Origin: an uncultured Roseobacter sp.
GTDB taxonomy: Bacteria; Pseudomonadota; Alphaproteobacteria; Rhodobacterales; Rhodobacteraceae
Direction: 5' to 3'
NCBI RefSeq assembly: GCF_947496515.1
Contig: NZ_CANMDB010000005.1
Coordinates: 216,501 to 280,500, forward strand
Length of the DNA stretch: 64,000 bases
Position 1 is the stretch's first letter, and every line of letters starts with the position of its first letter. Both the position numbers and the translations under genes were made by a program. Shown in pieces: positions 2,235-60,601 of this stretch. The notes under the pieces are model-generated. The model was not told the origin of the DNA and made no database searches. It saw only the letters and a list, made by a program, of their open reading frames with translations.

Positions 2235-3419
2235 TCAGGCGGTTTCTGCCGCGTAAGCGGCGGCGGCCCGGCCCGCCCACCGCCCGGTGGCCAGGCACGC
2301 GGTGATGAGATAGCCGCCCGTGGGCGCCTCCCAGTCCAGCATCTCGCCCGCGCAGAAGACCCCCGGCAGGGCGCGCAACATCAGACCCGGGGTCAGCGCG
2401 TCCCACGCGACCCCACCCGCAACGGAGATCGCACCGTCCAGCGCCCCCAGCCCCGCGTGGCGGATGGGCAGCGTCTTGAGCAGGTTGGCCAGCTGTGCCG
2501 GATGGGCTGGCAGCGGGCGCGCCATCTCCTGCGCCAGGGCAATCTTTATCGGTGGTAGCCGCAGGGTCTTGCGCAGATGGGTGGCAAGGCTCGCCTTGCC
2601 GCGCGGACGCGACAGTCTAGCCGTGACCGCCTCCAAATCCAGATCCGGCAACAGATCGACGATCAGCGGTGCACCCTGTCGGACCGCCCGGCTGATGCTG
2701 TAGATACCGCCACCCTCCAGCCCCGTCTGGCTGATCACCGCCTCGCCGCGGGTCTCGAGATCCCCGGCGCGCCAGTGGACCCCTTTCAGCGCGGTGCCGT
2801 AATGCCGTGCCATATGCTGCGACCAATCCACCCTCAGACCGACATTTGCCGCGAGAAAGGGCGTGACCGGCACGCCCTTGGCGGCCAGCTGCACCGTCCA
2901 CGCACCGTCAGAGCCCAGTCGCGACCAGCTCGCCCCGCCAAGCGCCATCACGGTGACGTCCGCACGGACCAATTCCGCGCCACCGGGACCGTCAAAGGCA
3001 AGGGCGGCGCCCTGCCAGCCCTGCCAGCGCAGCCCCTTCCGCAGCGTGACACCCGCCGCTCCCAGCCGAGCCAACCACGCCCTCAGCAGCGGTGAGGCCT
3101 TCATCGCGGTTGGGAAGACGCGGCCCGAGGAGCCGGTAAAGACCTCCTGTCCCAGACCGCGGGCCCAGCTCTGAACCGCCTGTGCATCGAAGTCTGTCAG
3201 CATGGGGCGCAAGGGGGCGGCGGCCTCGAAATACTGCGGCAGCTGCTCGGTCAAGGGCGTGTCCATCGCAAGATTGAGACCCGATTTCCCGGCCATGAGG
3301 AACTTGCGCCCGGCGGAGGGCTTGGCCTCATAGACCGTCACCCGCAGACCTGCCTCGGCCATTGCCTCTGCGGCCATCAGCCCCGCCGGACCCGACCCGA
3401 TCACCGCTGCCTCTTGCAT
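2235..3419 (-). CDS. NAD(P)/FAD-dependent oxidoreductase (HI0933/BaiN-like, TIGR03862 type)
   Basis: Flavoprotein of 394 residues. The Rossmann FAD-binding motif is at the N-terminus (AVIGSGPAGLMAAEAMAEAG, residues 5-24), followed by KFLMAGKSGLNLAMD, which is typical of the HI0933 family. Near the C-terminus, FCAGEMLDWEAPTGGYLITACLATGRWAG is the usual closing FAD motif. The physiological substrate is unknown for most members. The length is normal for the alphaproteobacterial subgroup. The start overlaps the far upstream region of the divergent HNH gene, whose likely start is at 3510. Confidence 0.88.
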   Translation of the reverse strand: MQEAAVIGSGPAGLMAAEAMAEAGLRVTVYEAKPSAGRKFLMAGKSGLNLAMDTPLTEQLPQYFEAAAPLRPMLTDFDAQAVQSWARGLGQEVFTGSSGRVFPTAMKASPLLRAWLARLGAAGVTLRKGLRWQGWQGAALAFDGPGGAELVRADVTVMALGGASWSRLGSDGAWTVQLAAKGVPVTPFLAANVGLRVDWSQHMARHYGTALKGVHWRAGDLETRGEAVISQTGLEGGGIYSISRAVRQGAPLIVDLLPDLDLEAVTARLSRPRGKASLATHLRKTLRLPPIKIALAQEMARPLPAHPAQLANLLKTLPIRHAGLGALDGAISVAGGVAWDALTPGLMLRALPGVFCAGEMLDWEAPTGGYLITACLATGRWAGRAAAAYAAETA

Positions 3420-57427: not shown

Positions 57428-57952
57428 CTAGGCAGTGACGGTACTGCGTGCAGGGTAGTCGTTCTCTCTTAAAAAGTCGACCTTGGCCAGCATGCCCACT
57501 AGATCGGGCCGCGCCATCGGCATGTTCGAGATATCCGCGAGATAGAGCCTGCCATCGGGCCGGATCCAAAAGAGCCCAGGCTCATTGAAGACATCCGGCT
57601 CCCCTTCCCTGATGGACCGTGAGATCCACAGCCCCCAATTCTGTGCCTGCTCGAGACTCAGCGAGTGGGCCACCCGCAAACCGTCGATATCCCAATCGTC
57701 GACGGACTTCTGCGCCGTTTCCGCATTATTCATGGAAACAGCGACAACACCGAAACCCGCTGCGGTGTACCCGTCCAGCAGCCCTGCAAGCTCACCCAGA
57801 TAGGTCTTGCACAGCGGGCAGTGGTGACCCCGGTAGAAGACCACCATCGTAAAGCTCTCAGGACGCTCGTCTGCGAGATCGAACGTACCACCCCCGACAA
57901 GCGGCAGGGCTAGATCCGGGGTACCCCCGTCGGGCGTCAGTTTCTGGCTCAT
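57428..57952 (-). CDS. peroxiredoxin-like thioredoxin-fold protein
   Basis: AhpC/TSA-type redoxin of 174 residues. The active-site region is VVFYRGHHCPLCKTYLGELAG with C45 and C48 (CPLC), a pair rather than the single peroxidatic Cys of standard peroxiredoxins. WDIDGLRVAHSLSLEQ and EPGLFWIRPDGRLYLADIS are typical of the peroxiredoxin-like subgroup. The ATG at 57952 follows CCAGGAGTGCCCGAC, a good ribosome site; longer in-frame extensions to 58243 are unlikely. The IS1 element begins 71 bases upstream of its start. Confidence 0.85.
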   Translation of the reverse strand: MSQKLTPDGGTPDLALPLVGGGTFDLADERPESFTMVVFYRGHHCPLCKTYLGELAGLLDGYTAAGFGVVAVSMNNAETAQKSVDDWDIDGLRVAHSLSLEQAQNWGLWISRSIREGEPDVFNEPGLFWIRPDGRLYLADISNMPMARPDLVGMLAKVDFLRENDYPARSTVTA

Positions 57953-58014
57953 GTCGGGCACTCCTGGAATAATAACTGTCTTTTCTAAGACGCTATCTGT
58001 CATTGTTGGCAGCG

Positions 58015-58022
58015 GAAAATCA
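58015..58022. repeat. left target-site duplication GAAAATCA
   Basis: The 8-mer GAAAATCA directly abuts the left terminal inverted repeat and is repeated exactly at 60594-60601 beside the right one. An 8-bp duplication is typical of IS1-family insertions. Confidence 0.88.
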
Positions 58023-58043
58023 GGTAGTGGGTCACTTTGAAAT
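58023..58043. repeat. left terminal inverted repeat of the IS1-family element
   Basis: 21-bp end beginning GGTAGTGGGTCACTTTGA. It pairs with 60573-60593 at 20 of 21 positions; the single mismatch is at the fifth base (G on the left, A on the right). Confidence 0.9.
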
Positions 58044-58109
58044 CTAGCCCCTCGCGCGGGCGCGAACCTTTGATTTGCACCGGATCGCATCTGGCCCCAT
58101 ATTGAGGGC

Positions 58110-58337
58110 ATGACCGACAAACCCAAGAGACCAAGAGACGCGAACCAGTTGGCCAAGTTCATTGTGGACGTGGCTACAGGCGAGGAGCCTGAGTATGAGC
58201 TTGATACTTCGGGGCAGCGCAAGGGTGGTTTGAAGGGTGGCAAGGCTCGCGCTGAAAAGCTAACTCGCGCTCAGCGAGAAGAAATTGCGACCAAAGCTTC
58301 AAACGCTAGGCGGAAAAAAGATCACGCTGACGAGTAG
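58110..58337 (+). CDS. small basic KGG-motif protein, IS passenger
   Basis: Protein of 75 residues. The N-terminal half reads MTDKPKRPRDANQLAKFIVD with an acidic VATGEEPEYELDT. The C-terminal half is basic: QRKGGLKGGKARAEKLTRAQ then REEIATKASNARRKK, the KGG-type motif seen in many small proteins of unknown function. It may bind nucleic acid, which is inference. It lies wholly inside the IS1-family element and overlaps the convergent ATPase gene by 32 bases at the 3' end. It is shared by the mobile context and is probably cargo. Confidence 0.75.
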   Translation: MTDKPKRPRDANQLAKFIVDVATGEEPEYELDTSGQRKGGLKGGKARAEKLTRAQREEIATKASNARRKKDHADE

Positions 58338-59583
58338 GTCCATATTTTTTCTCGATCTCTGGCGTCACCAGCCCGCTCTCTTTTCCTTTCAAGATGATGT
58401 ATGGCTCCGTCAGTGCTTCCCGGAAGCGGAACCGGAATTGGCGAGTAGTGCCCAGTTTTTCCAACATCCTTCCACGCTCATGGGTAGCAAACTGATCAAG
58501 GTGATATGAAAAAGCTGGAACCCCGTAGCTTTGCTTCATCAGGTCAGACAAGACCGTTGCAACATCCTTTGCCAAAAACCTTCCGCTGACATCTTTAGGG
58601 GCAAGCGCACAGGCCAATAATACCGGAAAGAAGATATTCTCTTTTCTTTCTGAATGTATCGCATCATCAAAATTTGTTCGTATCGTGCTGTTACTTTCGC
58701 CGATTGCTCGCGATCTCGCTTCTTCGATCACGGAAGAATCAACTAATGTAATCTTTCTATCACAGGCTGTCTGACAGGCGTGCAGGCCGAGCAAATGCGC
58801 ATAAAACGGCAGCCCCTTAGATAGAAACACGCAGTCCCAAAGTGCATCTTCAGTGACTTTTAGCCCCAATCCCCGGATGCGAGTGTGAATGACTTCGATA
58901 ATCTCTTGATCGTTCATTCGTGGCATCTCAACCTGCGCAACAGCTCTATCAATTGACTCATGGCCCTCGATAAGATCGGCTACGCTGTCTGCAATCCCGA
59001 CAATGAAAAAGGTTACATTTGCGCCTTCATCACTGATCAACTTCACTGTTTCAGCGACTTCCTCTTTTACTCTTCGGCTGCTTATTTTGTCGAACTCATC
59101 AATTACAATAATTGGGGTGACGGAGGCGGAGAACTCTTCAAACTCCAACAGCACATCATCGGCAGTGATTTCCTTTTCCAGATAGTAGTCGGCTACCTTG
59201 CGGCGTTTCCCATCCGGGCTTTCGGAGGATATCCGCTTAAAGACCTTTAAGAAAAGACTGGTGAATGTGTCTTCTGCAACCCCGGCGACACGGACGTACT
59301 GAATTCGTGCAGCGTTTTGGTCGGCTATGAATTTAAATACATTCACAAGTGAGGATTTTCCAACCCCTCGCTCGCCATACACAATGGCATGACTTCCGGG
59401 TGACCTAATTCGCTGCGTGAGTTTTTGAATCTGAGGAAGGCGGCCGGCAAAGAGTTCGCTCTGCTTGATTGGAGTGCCAGGAGTGAAGACCTGTTCACAC
59501 TCAAACCTCAAGTTTTCCCAGTCCTCATCTGACATAGTGTTGGGATTAAGAAAGCCGCTCGCCGTGCCTATTGGAAATTCCAC
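58306..59583 (-). CDS. Orc1/Cdc6-like AAA+ ATPase, IS passenger
   Basis: Protein of 425 residues. P-loop YGERGVGKSS (residues 69-78), Walker B PIIVIDEFDKIS, sensor region ANVTFFIVGIAD, and a helical lid with MNDQEIIEVIHTRIRGLGL. The C-terminal 130 residues (from about SGRFLAKDVATVLSDLMKQS) look like a winged-helix domain, giving the layout of Orc1/Cdc6 and of transposition ATPases. It starts with GTG after AGGGGCG. It is markedly AT-rich compared with its surroundings. Its role (element mobility, target choice, or a defence or addiction function) is not decidable. Confidence 0.8.
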   Translation of the reverse strand: MEFPIGTASGFLNPNTMSDEDWENLRFECEQVFTPGTPIKQSELFAGRLPQIQKLTQRIRSPGSHAIVYGERGVGKSSLVNVFKFIADQNAARIQYVRVAGVAEDTFTSLFLKVFKRISSESPDGKRRKVADYYLEKEITADDVLLEFEEFSASVTPIIVIDEFDKISSRRVKEEVAETVKLISDEGANVTFFIVGIADSVADLIEGHESIDRAVAQVEMPRMNDQEIIEVIHTRIRGLGLKVTEDALWDCVFLSKGLPFYAHLLGLHACQTACDRKITLVDSSVIEEARSRAIGESNSTIRTNFDDAIHSERKENIFFPVLLACALAPKDVSGRFLAKDVATVLSDLMKQSYGVPAFSYHLDQFATHERGRMLEKLGTTRQFRFRFREALTEPYIILKGKESGLVTPEIEKKYGPTRQRDLFSA

Positions 59584-59687
59584 GATTCGCCCCTACATCG
59601 CTCCACAATTGCTAAATAAGGGCTTCACCGCTGTCAATCTGGTCAATTTATCTTGACTATCGGTCAGTTTGAAATTAGGTTCAGCTT
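59584..59687. promoter_or_regulatory. divergent promoter region inside the element
   Basis: The 104-bp AT-rich gap between the ATPase and transposase starts must hold promoters for both. TTGACT at 59653-59658 could be a -35 for the transposase gene, but no clear -10 is seen and none could be fixed. Confidence 0.35.
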
Positions 59688-60584
59688 ATGAGAAAGCTCG
59701 ACACCAAAACCCGCGCCCTAATCATCCGCCTTTTGGTAGAGGGCAATAGCATCCGTGCCATCAGCCGCATCGCAGACGTGTCCAAGAACACCGTCAACAA
59801 GCTGCTGATCGACGCGGGCGCGGCGTGCGCCAAGTATCACGACGAGCATGTGCGCAGCGTTCGGGCGTCTGTGATCCAGTGTGACGAAATCTGGAGCTTC
59901 ACCTACGCCAAGCAGAAGAACGTTGCAGGCGCGAAGGCTGCACTAGATCACGCGGGCGACACTTGGACGTGCACCGCAATCGACAGCGATAGCAAGCTAA
60001 TCGTGTCTTACATGGTCGGTGGACGGGACAGCGAATATGCAATCGCGTTCATGGATGATCTGCGCGACCGTCTGGCGAACTGGGTGCAACTAACCACTGA
60101 CGGTCACAAAGCCTATCTTGAAGCCGTAGAGGGCGCGTTTGGCGGCGATGTGGACTATGCACAGCTTATCAAGATGTACGGCGGCGAAACTGGCACCAAA
60201 GGCCACGAGAAAAAGTACAGCCCCGCAGAATGTACCGGGATCAAGAGGCGCACCGTCGAAGGCAATCCAGACAAATCTCTGATCAGCACCAGCCACGTTG
60301 AGCGTCAGAACCTCACCATGCGGATGCACATGCGCCGCTTTACACGCCTGACCAATGGGTTCTCAAAGAAGGTGGAAAACCACATGCACGCGGTTGCGCT
60401 GCACTTCATGTGCTACAACTTCGTGAAGGTGCATCAGACCCTGAAAGTGACGCCAGCAATGGAAGCTGGTTTGACGGATCGCCTCTGGGATATTTCCGAT
60501 CTGGTGGCTATCGTGGATGCAAACGAGCCAGCACCTAAAAAACGCGGCCCTTACAAACCTCGCAAGAAATCAATTTCAAAGTGA
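59688..60584 (+). CDS. IS1-family DDE transposase
   Basis: Transposase of 298 residues. The N-terminal helix-turn-helix is NSIRAISRIADVSKNTVNKL. The DDE catalytic residues are suggested by QCDEIWSFTYAKQKN (first Asp), LTTDGHKAYLEAV (second Asp) and STSHVERQNLTMRMHMRRF (Glu). This is the layout of the single-frame IS1 relatives found in alphaproteobacteria and archaea, without the frameshift of classical IS1. The stop TGA lies within the right inverted repeat. Confidence 0.9.
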   Translation: MRKLDTKTRALIIRLLVEGNSIRAISRIADVSKNTVNKLLIDAGAACAKYHDEHVRSVRASVIQCDEIWSFTYAKQKNVAGAKAALDHAGDTWTCTAIDSDSKLIVSYMVGGRDSEYAIAFMDDLRDRLANWVQLTTDGHKAYLEAVEGAFGGDVDYAQLIKMYGGETGTKGHEKKYSPAECTGIKRRTVEGNPDKSLISTSHVERQNLTMRMHMRRFTRLTNGFSKKVENHMHAVALHFMCYNFVKVHQTLKVTPAMEAGLTDRLWDISDLVAIVDANEPAPKKRGPYKPRKKSISK

Positions 60585-60593
60585 CCCATTACC
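60573..60593. repeat. right terminal inverted repeat of the IS1-family element
   Basis: Reverse complement begins GGTAATGGGTCACTTTGA and matches the left end at 20 of 21 positions. The transposase stop codon is inside it (60582-60584). Confidence 0.9.
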
Positions 60594-60601
60594 GAAAATC
60601 A
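60594..60601. repeat. right target-site duplication GAAAATCA
   Basis: Exact copy of the 8-mer at 58015-58022, directly outside the right inverted repeat. Confidence 0.88.

Follow-up and report, generated by a model that had tools for sequence, protein, structure and literature searches.

An IS1-like transposon with an AAA+ ATPase gene in an uncultured Roseobacter and its probable place in a family with a fixed core and exchangeable cargo

A stretch of 64,000 nucleotides from contig NZ_CANMDB010000005.1 of an uncultured Roseobacter sp. (referred to below, at its full length, as the window) contains at positions 58015-60601 a compact mobile unit in which an IS1-like transposase shares one pair of ends with a gene for an Orc1/Cdc6-like AAA+ ATPase and a gene for a small basic protein, here called KGG. 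Small insertion sequences (IS) are usually thought to carry a transposase only. We compare this unit with relatives from public genomes, viral contigs and plasmids and find it very probable that it belongs to a large family of IS1-like transposons in which the core stays fixed and the cargo in one slot is exchangeable.

The element in the window and its mapped relatives

The unit is delimited by a perfect 8-bp duplication and contains three open reading frames (ORFs) and two putative control sites:

58015..58022 (no strand): left target-site duplication GAAAATCA, an exact match to 60594-60601
58023..58043 (+): left terminal inverted repeat (IRL), 20/21 against the right one, with the same end type in other mapped elements
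58110..58337 (+): KGG mini-gene, 75 residues, basic, predicted helical (ORF; profile match in 141/142 elements)
58306..59583 (-): cargo gene for a 425-residue Orc1/Cdc6-like AAA+ ATPase with a winged-helix tail and a GTG start (ORF, Pfam, structure model)
59653..59657 (+): TTGAC, putative -35 box of the transposase promoter, at a position conserved in relatives
59662..59675 (+): internal copy of the end sequence (13/14), GGTCAGTTTGAAAT, a putative operator 26 bp before the transposase ATG
59688..60584 (+): IS1-like transposase, a single ORF of 298 residues with an N-terminal helix-turn-helix (ORF, Pfam)
60573..60593 (-): right terminal inverted repeat (IRR), 20/21 against IRL by sequence
60594..60601 (no strand): right target-site duplication GAAAATCA, by sequence

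The transposase gene overlaps IRR by 12 bp at its 3' end, and the ATPase gene is convergent with KGG, whose 3' end it overlaps. A first-pass annotation, made from the letters alone, had proposed a closed unit at 58015-60601, and its perfect duplication, its 20/21-bp inverted repeats, the AAA+ ATPase with (in the model) a winged-helix tail and the basic KGG protein are all confirmed here. The same annotation placed the element in the IS1 family, which holds at the level of the domain: the transposase matches Pfam DDE_Tnp_IS1 over residues 199-237 with 30.5 bits against a gathering threshold of 24.1. Because it remains below the NCBIfam IS1 equivalog cut-off (64.5 bits against 100), we call it IS1-like and not IS1 proper; the IS1595 transposase profile gives 22.4 bits against a cut-off of 75. 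The closest plasmid relatives of the transposase are 60-67% identical, and on a Mesorhizobium loti plasmid a gene annotated 'histone H1', which is the KGG gene, is followed by two other genes and then by the transposase.

Relatives were mapped with a script that searched either side of the transposase for terminal repeats and also sought an 8-bp duplication; ends were detected by their likeness to the known end sequence, and elements with other ends would escape. The loci comprised the best 80 of at least 562 confirmed in a scan of public genomes and the best 80 of 119 confirmed on viral contigs, both sets being chosen by similarity and not as random samples, with five plasmid loci and 20 regions from genomes of the same family in addition; 23 of the 160 loci from the two scans could not be mapped to both ends. 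Among the 183 transposase loci, the window included, 121 had a perfect 8-bp duplication, six had one with 7/8 bases and 23 had matching ends only. After eight exact duplicates were merged, 142 elements remained, the window's among them, of which 115 have a perfect 8-bp duplication, six have one with 7/8 bases and 21 have inverted repeats without a duplication; the members of two pairs (L052/L053 and L174/L175) that differ by one base each are both counted, so that clearly distinct elements number 140. Since 115 elements share the end type, perfect 8-bp duplications and the kind of transposase, the ends and the duplication in the window are not a chance pattern.

The 142 elements are 1.3-5.6 kb long (median 3.1 kb), and because the left end is never closer than 423 bp to the transposase, there is no bare 1-kb IS among them. 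In related Acidiphilium plasmids (L252 against L016) we find an empty site with exactly one copy of the 8-mer, and in related Mesorhizobium plasmids (L250 and L251 against L015) empty sites with a single 8-mer that differs by one base. Identical copies with different duplications lie at two sites of one genome (L095/L096), and a second such pair, L052/L053, agrees at 3249 of 3250 bases and again has different duplications at two sites in one genome. The sequences show that the relatives transpose whole and generate 8-bp duplications. Of 337 genomes sampled from the class, 36 gave a transposase match, which was near full length in 25.

The single copy of the window's element in its own genome would fit a chance event in which an IS1-like element captured flanking DNA once and so joined the three genes, an explanation to which we give almost no credence. 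KGG and the transposase recur between one pair of ends in 141/142 elements, the genome records are by title mostly Alphaproteobacteria, with two loci in one Nitrospirales assembly besides, and the absence of a bare 1-kb IS contradicts it.

Two further observations concern the surroundings of such elements. A redoxin-like gene (named from its sequence; 57428-58004, minus strand, with its ATG at 57952 or 58004) has the window's element directly 5' of it, and the insertion may separate this gene from its promoter. At L341:5310-5671 a stretch of 362 bp carries end-like repeats at either side (13/21 alike) together with a perfect 8-bp duplication CAAAGCTA, contains part of a KGG gene at its edge and is apparently a deletion derivative of the element family.

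The KGG gene and the transposase promoter

The KGG profile matches 141/142 elements, in 136 of them on the transposase strand, and 114/115 of those with perfect 8-bp duplications; in the 1.82 Mb of flanking DNA of the same loci it matches only once. The profile was built in rounds, from 62 seeds picked by motif to 137, then 139, then 141 elements, and 141 is an upper estimate, the first-round figure being 137; the weakest members (e.g. L216, L222 and L224) have no GG motif at the C-terminus or are encoded on the opposite strand. When the end mapping was not used, KGG was found within 5 kb of the transposase in 148 of the 160 scan loci, and several of the other 12 are cut by a contig end, with L201 and L210 not so accounted for. 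The association is also seen in genome samples: KGG is present in 24 of 25 genomes of the class with a near-full transposase against 10 of the 312 others, and in 9/9 such genomes of the family against 5/286.

Either gene is occasionally found by itself. Six of 32 strong KGG loci in the class sample have no transposase within 6 kb, and of the five inspected four lie beside an end and one (L408) does not; in the family sample a full transposase is not adjacent to 8 of 17 KGG loci, six of which lie by an end and two (L335 and L340) do not. KGG is missing within 6 kb of 5/29 near-full transposases in the class sample, and of the four such loci that were fetched two are cut by a contig end and two (L406 and L407) are distant forms. 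Nor was it found in the fetched stretches beside the distant IS1-like transposases inspected (22-41% identity; L018, L401-L403, L406 and L407), and the link between KGG and transposase seems limited to this branch of transposases.

In 45/45 pairs of KGG genes the proportion of nonsynonymous differences (pN) is below that of synonymous ones (pS), with medians of 0.18 and 0.62 and synonymous sites near saturation, and the gene looks to be under purifying selection. Distances between KGG proteins and between transposases correlate at 0.58 over 136 elements; within the 54 elements that carry the commonest cargo the correlation with the transposase is 0.54 for KGG and 0.26 for the cargo. Across the relatives, KGG and the transposase remain together under changing cargo.

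The transposase promoter repeats part of the ends. TTGAC stands 34-38 bp before the transposase ATG in 102/137 mapped elements, and a T/A-rich box is seen near -11 of the ATG when 110 bp of upstream DNA are compared among the same 137; the window's own transposase promoter is without a clear -10 box. Given the fixed short distance of both boxes from the ATG, the transposase transcript is predicted to have little or no leader. The window and five close relatives (the near-identical pair L052/L053 among them) have the 13/14 end copy at 26 bp before the ATG, and in 39/137 elements a half-site, AAA[CG]TGA, is found 50-53 bp ahead of the ATG, with 0 matches in 130 control stretches. This recurrence of the end sequence in the promoter suggests that one end-binding protein also controls the transposase gene, for which both the transposase and KGG are candidates.

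Ends and KGG proteins also fall into corresponding types. In the 112 elements in which both could be typed, ends with GG at positions 8-9 pair with KGG proteins of the RPRDxNQLA type in 49/51 cases, and ends with TC at these positions pair with the RPADV type in 53/61. The pairing may hint that KGG recognises the ends, and shared descent explains it equally well; the transposase tree requires only 5-6 changes for it, and the number of independent pairs was too small to test for co-evolution beyond common ancestry.

KGG might instead be a cargo gene that was fixed early, such as one for an antitoxin or a host-takeover protein, and was kept only through its adjacency to the left end. We consider this unlikely, given that KGG is present in 141/142 elements regardless of their cargo and appears to be selected for its protein sequence, although its correlation with the commonest cargo is as strong as that with the transposase and its stop codon overlaps that of a convergent cargo gene by exactly 4 bp in 47 of the 86 elements with convergent cargo. 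Some KGG copies do persist by a left end without a transposase, as such a gene would; several of these solo copies are near contig ends, where the transposase may have been cut off. The shortest element, L190 (1.3 kb), retains the start of KGG with an altered C-terminus and shows no further cargo ORF of at least 80 residues.

Cargo exchange and the place of the ATPase

Cargo ORFs were called greedily, so that genes can be missed or mis-started (L157 has no cargo under the filter used, yet a 519-residue ORF overlaps its KGG), and they were clustered by single linkage, with family names checked on cluster representatives only. The commonest cluster, present in 54/142 elements, is represented by a protein with an Xre helix-turn-helix and an ImmA/IrrE region that matches the PADLOC profile PD-Lambda-2_B at E 7e-39 (the representative alone was scanned). 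It is accompanied in 31 elements by a protein of ~160 residues (c1) with no match in PADLOC and none above cut-off in Pfam, in 16 elements by proteins of clusters c5, c7 or c13, and in 8/54 by a member of a HigB-like toxin cluster; the representatives of c7 and c13 are RmrT-like, a name for which a literature search gave no useful match. The third largest cluster, c2, is represented by a P63C-domain protein and occurs in 14/142 elements (e.g. L107:8909-9961), and a Panacea/SocA cluster, named by its representative, in seven. Other representatives identify a PemK toxin, NYN proteins, a methyltransferase-Mrr fusion, ClpP-like proteases and an AbiEii/OLD-like ATPase (PADLOC HEC-04).

The distribution of these cargos was compared with a transposase tree of 136 rows, made by a quick method, in which 41/131 inner branches are well supported and some long branches are joined. 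Twelve cargo labels require 69 changes on this tree against 73.4 for shuffled labels, and the ATPase label, carried by eight elements, requires eight changes, seven of which are forced by well-supported branches. Cargo is, on this tree, nearly but not wholly random, and exchange appears frequent. Close relatives of the window's element show the same: among the matches listed, the nearest transposases are those of L151, which is 93% identical and travels with a protease-type cargo, and L071, which is 92% identical and travels with an ATPase only ~31% identical to the window's, and L072, also near, has a PD-lambda-2-like cargo. At the DNA level, relatives with different loads share a left block consisting of the end and KGG, then diverge, and then share a right block, which in 4/7 comparisons begins at -36 of the transposase ATG, in the -35 region of the promoter.

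The ATPase scores above the Pfam cut-offs for nSTAND1, AAA_16, AAA_22 and AAA. Its AlphaFold model (mean predicted local distance difference test score, pLDDT, 81) matches archaeal Orc1/Cdc6 proteins along residues ~20-400, the winged-helix part included. A homologue (L145) gave nothing in PADLOC at E 0.001.

The gene is present in 8/142 elements and absent from 134/142, and it is mostly found elsewhere. Homologues on viral contigs occupy 62 loci, five with this transposase nearby (L267, L268, L273, L276 and L312) and 57 without it; L267 and L268 do not differ in the compared part, and the contigs L273 and L276 come from elements that had already been counted. Many of the viral contigs are short, with less than 2.5 kb on one side of the gene at 21/62 loci, and where both sides extend to 2.5 kb or more (41 loci), the transposase is present at three and absent at 38. 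KGG matches without the transposase occur at two ATPase loci, L266 and, weakly (E 1.6e-5), G607. In the class, a homologue is present in 10 of 385 genomes and adjoins this transposase in two of them, the window's included; the family sample has one in 9/295 genomes, and no such transposase lies around the two distant ones inspected (L069 and L070). Homologues are also found on plasmids. In 34 ATPase loci, nearly all outside such elements, no recurrent partner gene was found, the only repeated neighbours being this transposase (3) and an endolysin-like gene (2 viral contigs). In the latter, L253 and L254, the ATPase (39-40% identical to the window's) lies within ~3-4 kb of the endolysin-like gene, which was named from its sequence.

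The first-pass annotation had asked whether ATPase homologues are always flanked by this transposase, these ends and KGG, and had named homologues mainly outside such elements as a sign of chance association; the latter is what we find, as the 57/62 viral loci without the transposase illustrate. Mostly found away from this transposase and without a recurrent partner gene, the ATPase gene seems to be self-contained and to travel on several kinds of mobile DNA; because only 8/142 elements carry it and its homologues are mostly outside such elements, it is best read as cargo. The other role suggested for it was that of a transposition helper, which would select targets or act as an activator, as TnsC, IstB and MuB do, and which some members only would have acquired. 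This is quite improbable. The 134 elements without the ATPase have the same end type, archaeal Orc/Cdc6-type chains outrank TnsC by Z, and the observations on the viral contigs and on partner genes speak against it, as do the cargos of L151 and L071, the latter combining a transposase so close to the window's with so distant an ATPase.

What the ATPase does is a separate question. We lean towards a defence or addiction switch, a reading favoured because many recognisable cargos in relatives are of toxin-antitoxin, restriction-modification or anti-phage type; the earlier suggestion that the ATPase and KGG together form such a module is in this way upheld for the extra gene, whereas KGG appears instead as a near-obligate partner of the transposase. 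It could alternatively be a DNA-binding or replication regulator, an Orc-like initiator of benefit to plasmid or prophage hosts and neither a defence gene nor a helper. The predicted Orc1/Cdc6-like fold with its winged helix and the homologues on plasmids and viral contigs would suit such a role, which we nevertheless think unlikely, since the NCBIfam Orc1/Cdc6 family TIGR02928 gives 25.4 bits against a cut-off of 181.3 and the genes that often occupy the slot are of toxin-antitoxin, restriction and Abi type. As a best guess we rank a defence or addiction switch first, another DNA-linked role second and a transposition helper last.

We propose that these transposons have a core made of KGG together with the left end and of the transposase together with the right end, and that a cargo module, often replaced, occupies the space from the KGG stop codon to the transposase promoter and at times also lies beyond the transposase. 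The transposase would recognise the ends and mobilise everything between them. KGG would be a small DNA-associated partner of the transposase, perhaps end-binding or regulatory, in a role like that of InsA in IS1. The cargo would earn its keep through addiction or through protection of the host from phages, and the ATPase would be one such cargo, most likely a self-contained defence or addiction gene of the nucleotide-switch kind.

Several results pull against this proposal. Cargo clusters are singletons in 141/178 cases, no Pfam family matched more than four of 117 cluster representatives, and many cargo proteins are without a recognised family. Exchange is not fully random: with all cargo labels, equally few changes were reached in 11/200 shuffles, and the commonest cargo is partly clustered on the tree (35 changes against 42.7 when shuffled, as low in 2/500). 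The window's ATPase has no convincing match in PADLOC, the best being E 0.0058 over 36 residues. Single-copy empty sites, which the first-pass annotation proposed to look for, were found in the lineages of two relatives and not for the window's own copy, whose 603-bp left flank, compared with 19 genomes (its own included), gave beyond itself one weak match of 44 bp. The DNA-linked role proposed for KGG rests on charge and linkage, and among the 54 carriers of the commonest cargo the correlation between KGG and cargo is 0.55, so that the two are not cleanly separable. The window's KGG protein has no match in Pfam (up to E 1), the KGG stress-motif family included, in NCBIfam or in PADLOC; its structure model has three helices, with an overall fold that is not confident (predicted template-modelling score, pTM, 0.41), and a Foldseek search with it returned one match, at E 8.3, and no useful fold.

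More tentatively, and with some doubt, we raise the possibility that these elements form a new class of IS1-derived transposon by which immunity and addiction genes are shuffled. KGG would then be an obligatory DNA-binding partner of the transposase, acting in end recognition, repression or cargo exchange, and defence modules, unrelated or distantly related, would be replaced with a frequency that leaves the cargo nearly random on the transposase tree.

A family of elements of 1.3-5.6 kb that apparently transports defence and toxin-antitoxin modules one at a time would, if real, be a simple vehicle for the fast turnover of bacterial immune genes, and inspection of the DNA between KGG and the transposase offers a route to new defence genes. 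The KGG protein, as a conserved and unannotated partner of a transposase, poses a clear question of its own.

Comparison with known systems

We found no description in the open PMC literature of an IS1-like core with a fixed KGG gene and cargo that is often exchanged and often defence-like. The undescribed three-gene class first proposed for the window therefore stands as a complete unit without a description in that literature, with the change that the ATPase, present in 8/142 elements, is not part of the core: the transposase, KGG and the ends are apparently the undescribed part, and the idea of an IS with passengers is already known.

With IS1 the window's element shares a DDE_Tnp_IS1 domain above the Pfam cut-off, ends that start with GGT, as IS1 ends do, and 8-bp duplications, where IS1 duplicates 8-9 bp of its target. 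Classical IS1 has insA and insB in two frames joined by a frameshift, although single-frame IS1 subgroups exist, whereas the window's element has a single frame of 298 residues. Its transposase also scores below the equivalog cut-off, and the family differs from IS1 in its median length of 3.1 kb with cargo and in the KGG gene.

The ATPase has 13-15% identity to archaeal Orc1/Cdc6 and related AAA+ ATPases (2qen, 2qby and 2v1u) and scores far below the family cut-off. In contrast to TnsC, IstB and MuB in their elements, it is neither conserved nor obligate in this transposon and is mostly found away from it. The likeness to PD-lambda-2, which Vassallo et al. 2022 (PMC9519451) showed to be a toxin-antitoxin-like anti-phage system, belongs to the commonest cargo of the relatives and not to the window's element.

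The closest precedent is the transporter IS (tIS), an IS with passengers, for which PMC3129680 refers to the work of Siguier, Gagnevin and Chandler (2009) on the IS1595 family. As PMC3129680 has it for tIS, copies here hold passenger genes between their own ends, and the marks of a tIS are present in that the 8-bp duplications lie outside the cargo in the window and its relatives and empty sites exist for two relatives; the passengers are presumably unrelated to transposition, because they are exchanged. The window's transposase, unlike that of IS1595, is IS1-like by profile (64.5 against 22.4 bits). In contrast to tIS, KGG is nearly universal here, with no bare form among the 142 elements, and much of the recognisable cargo is of the addiction or defence type and changes very often.

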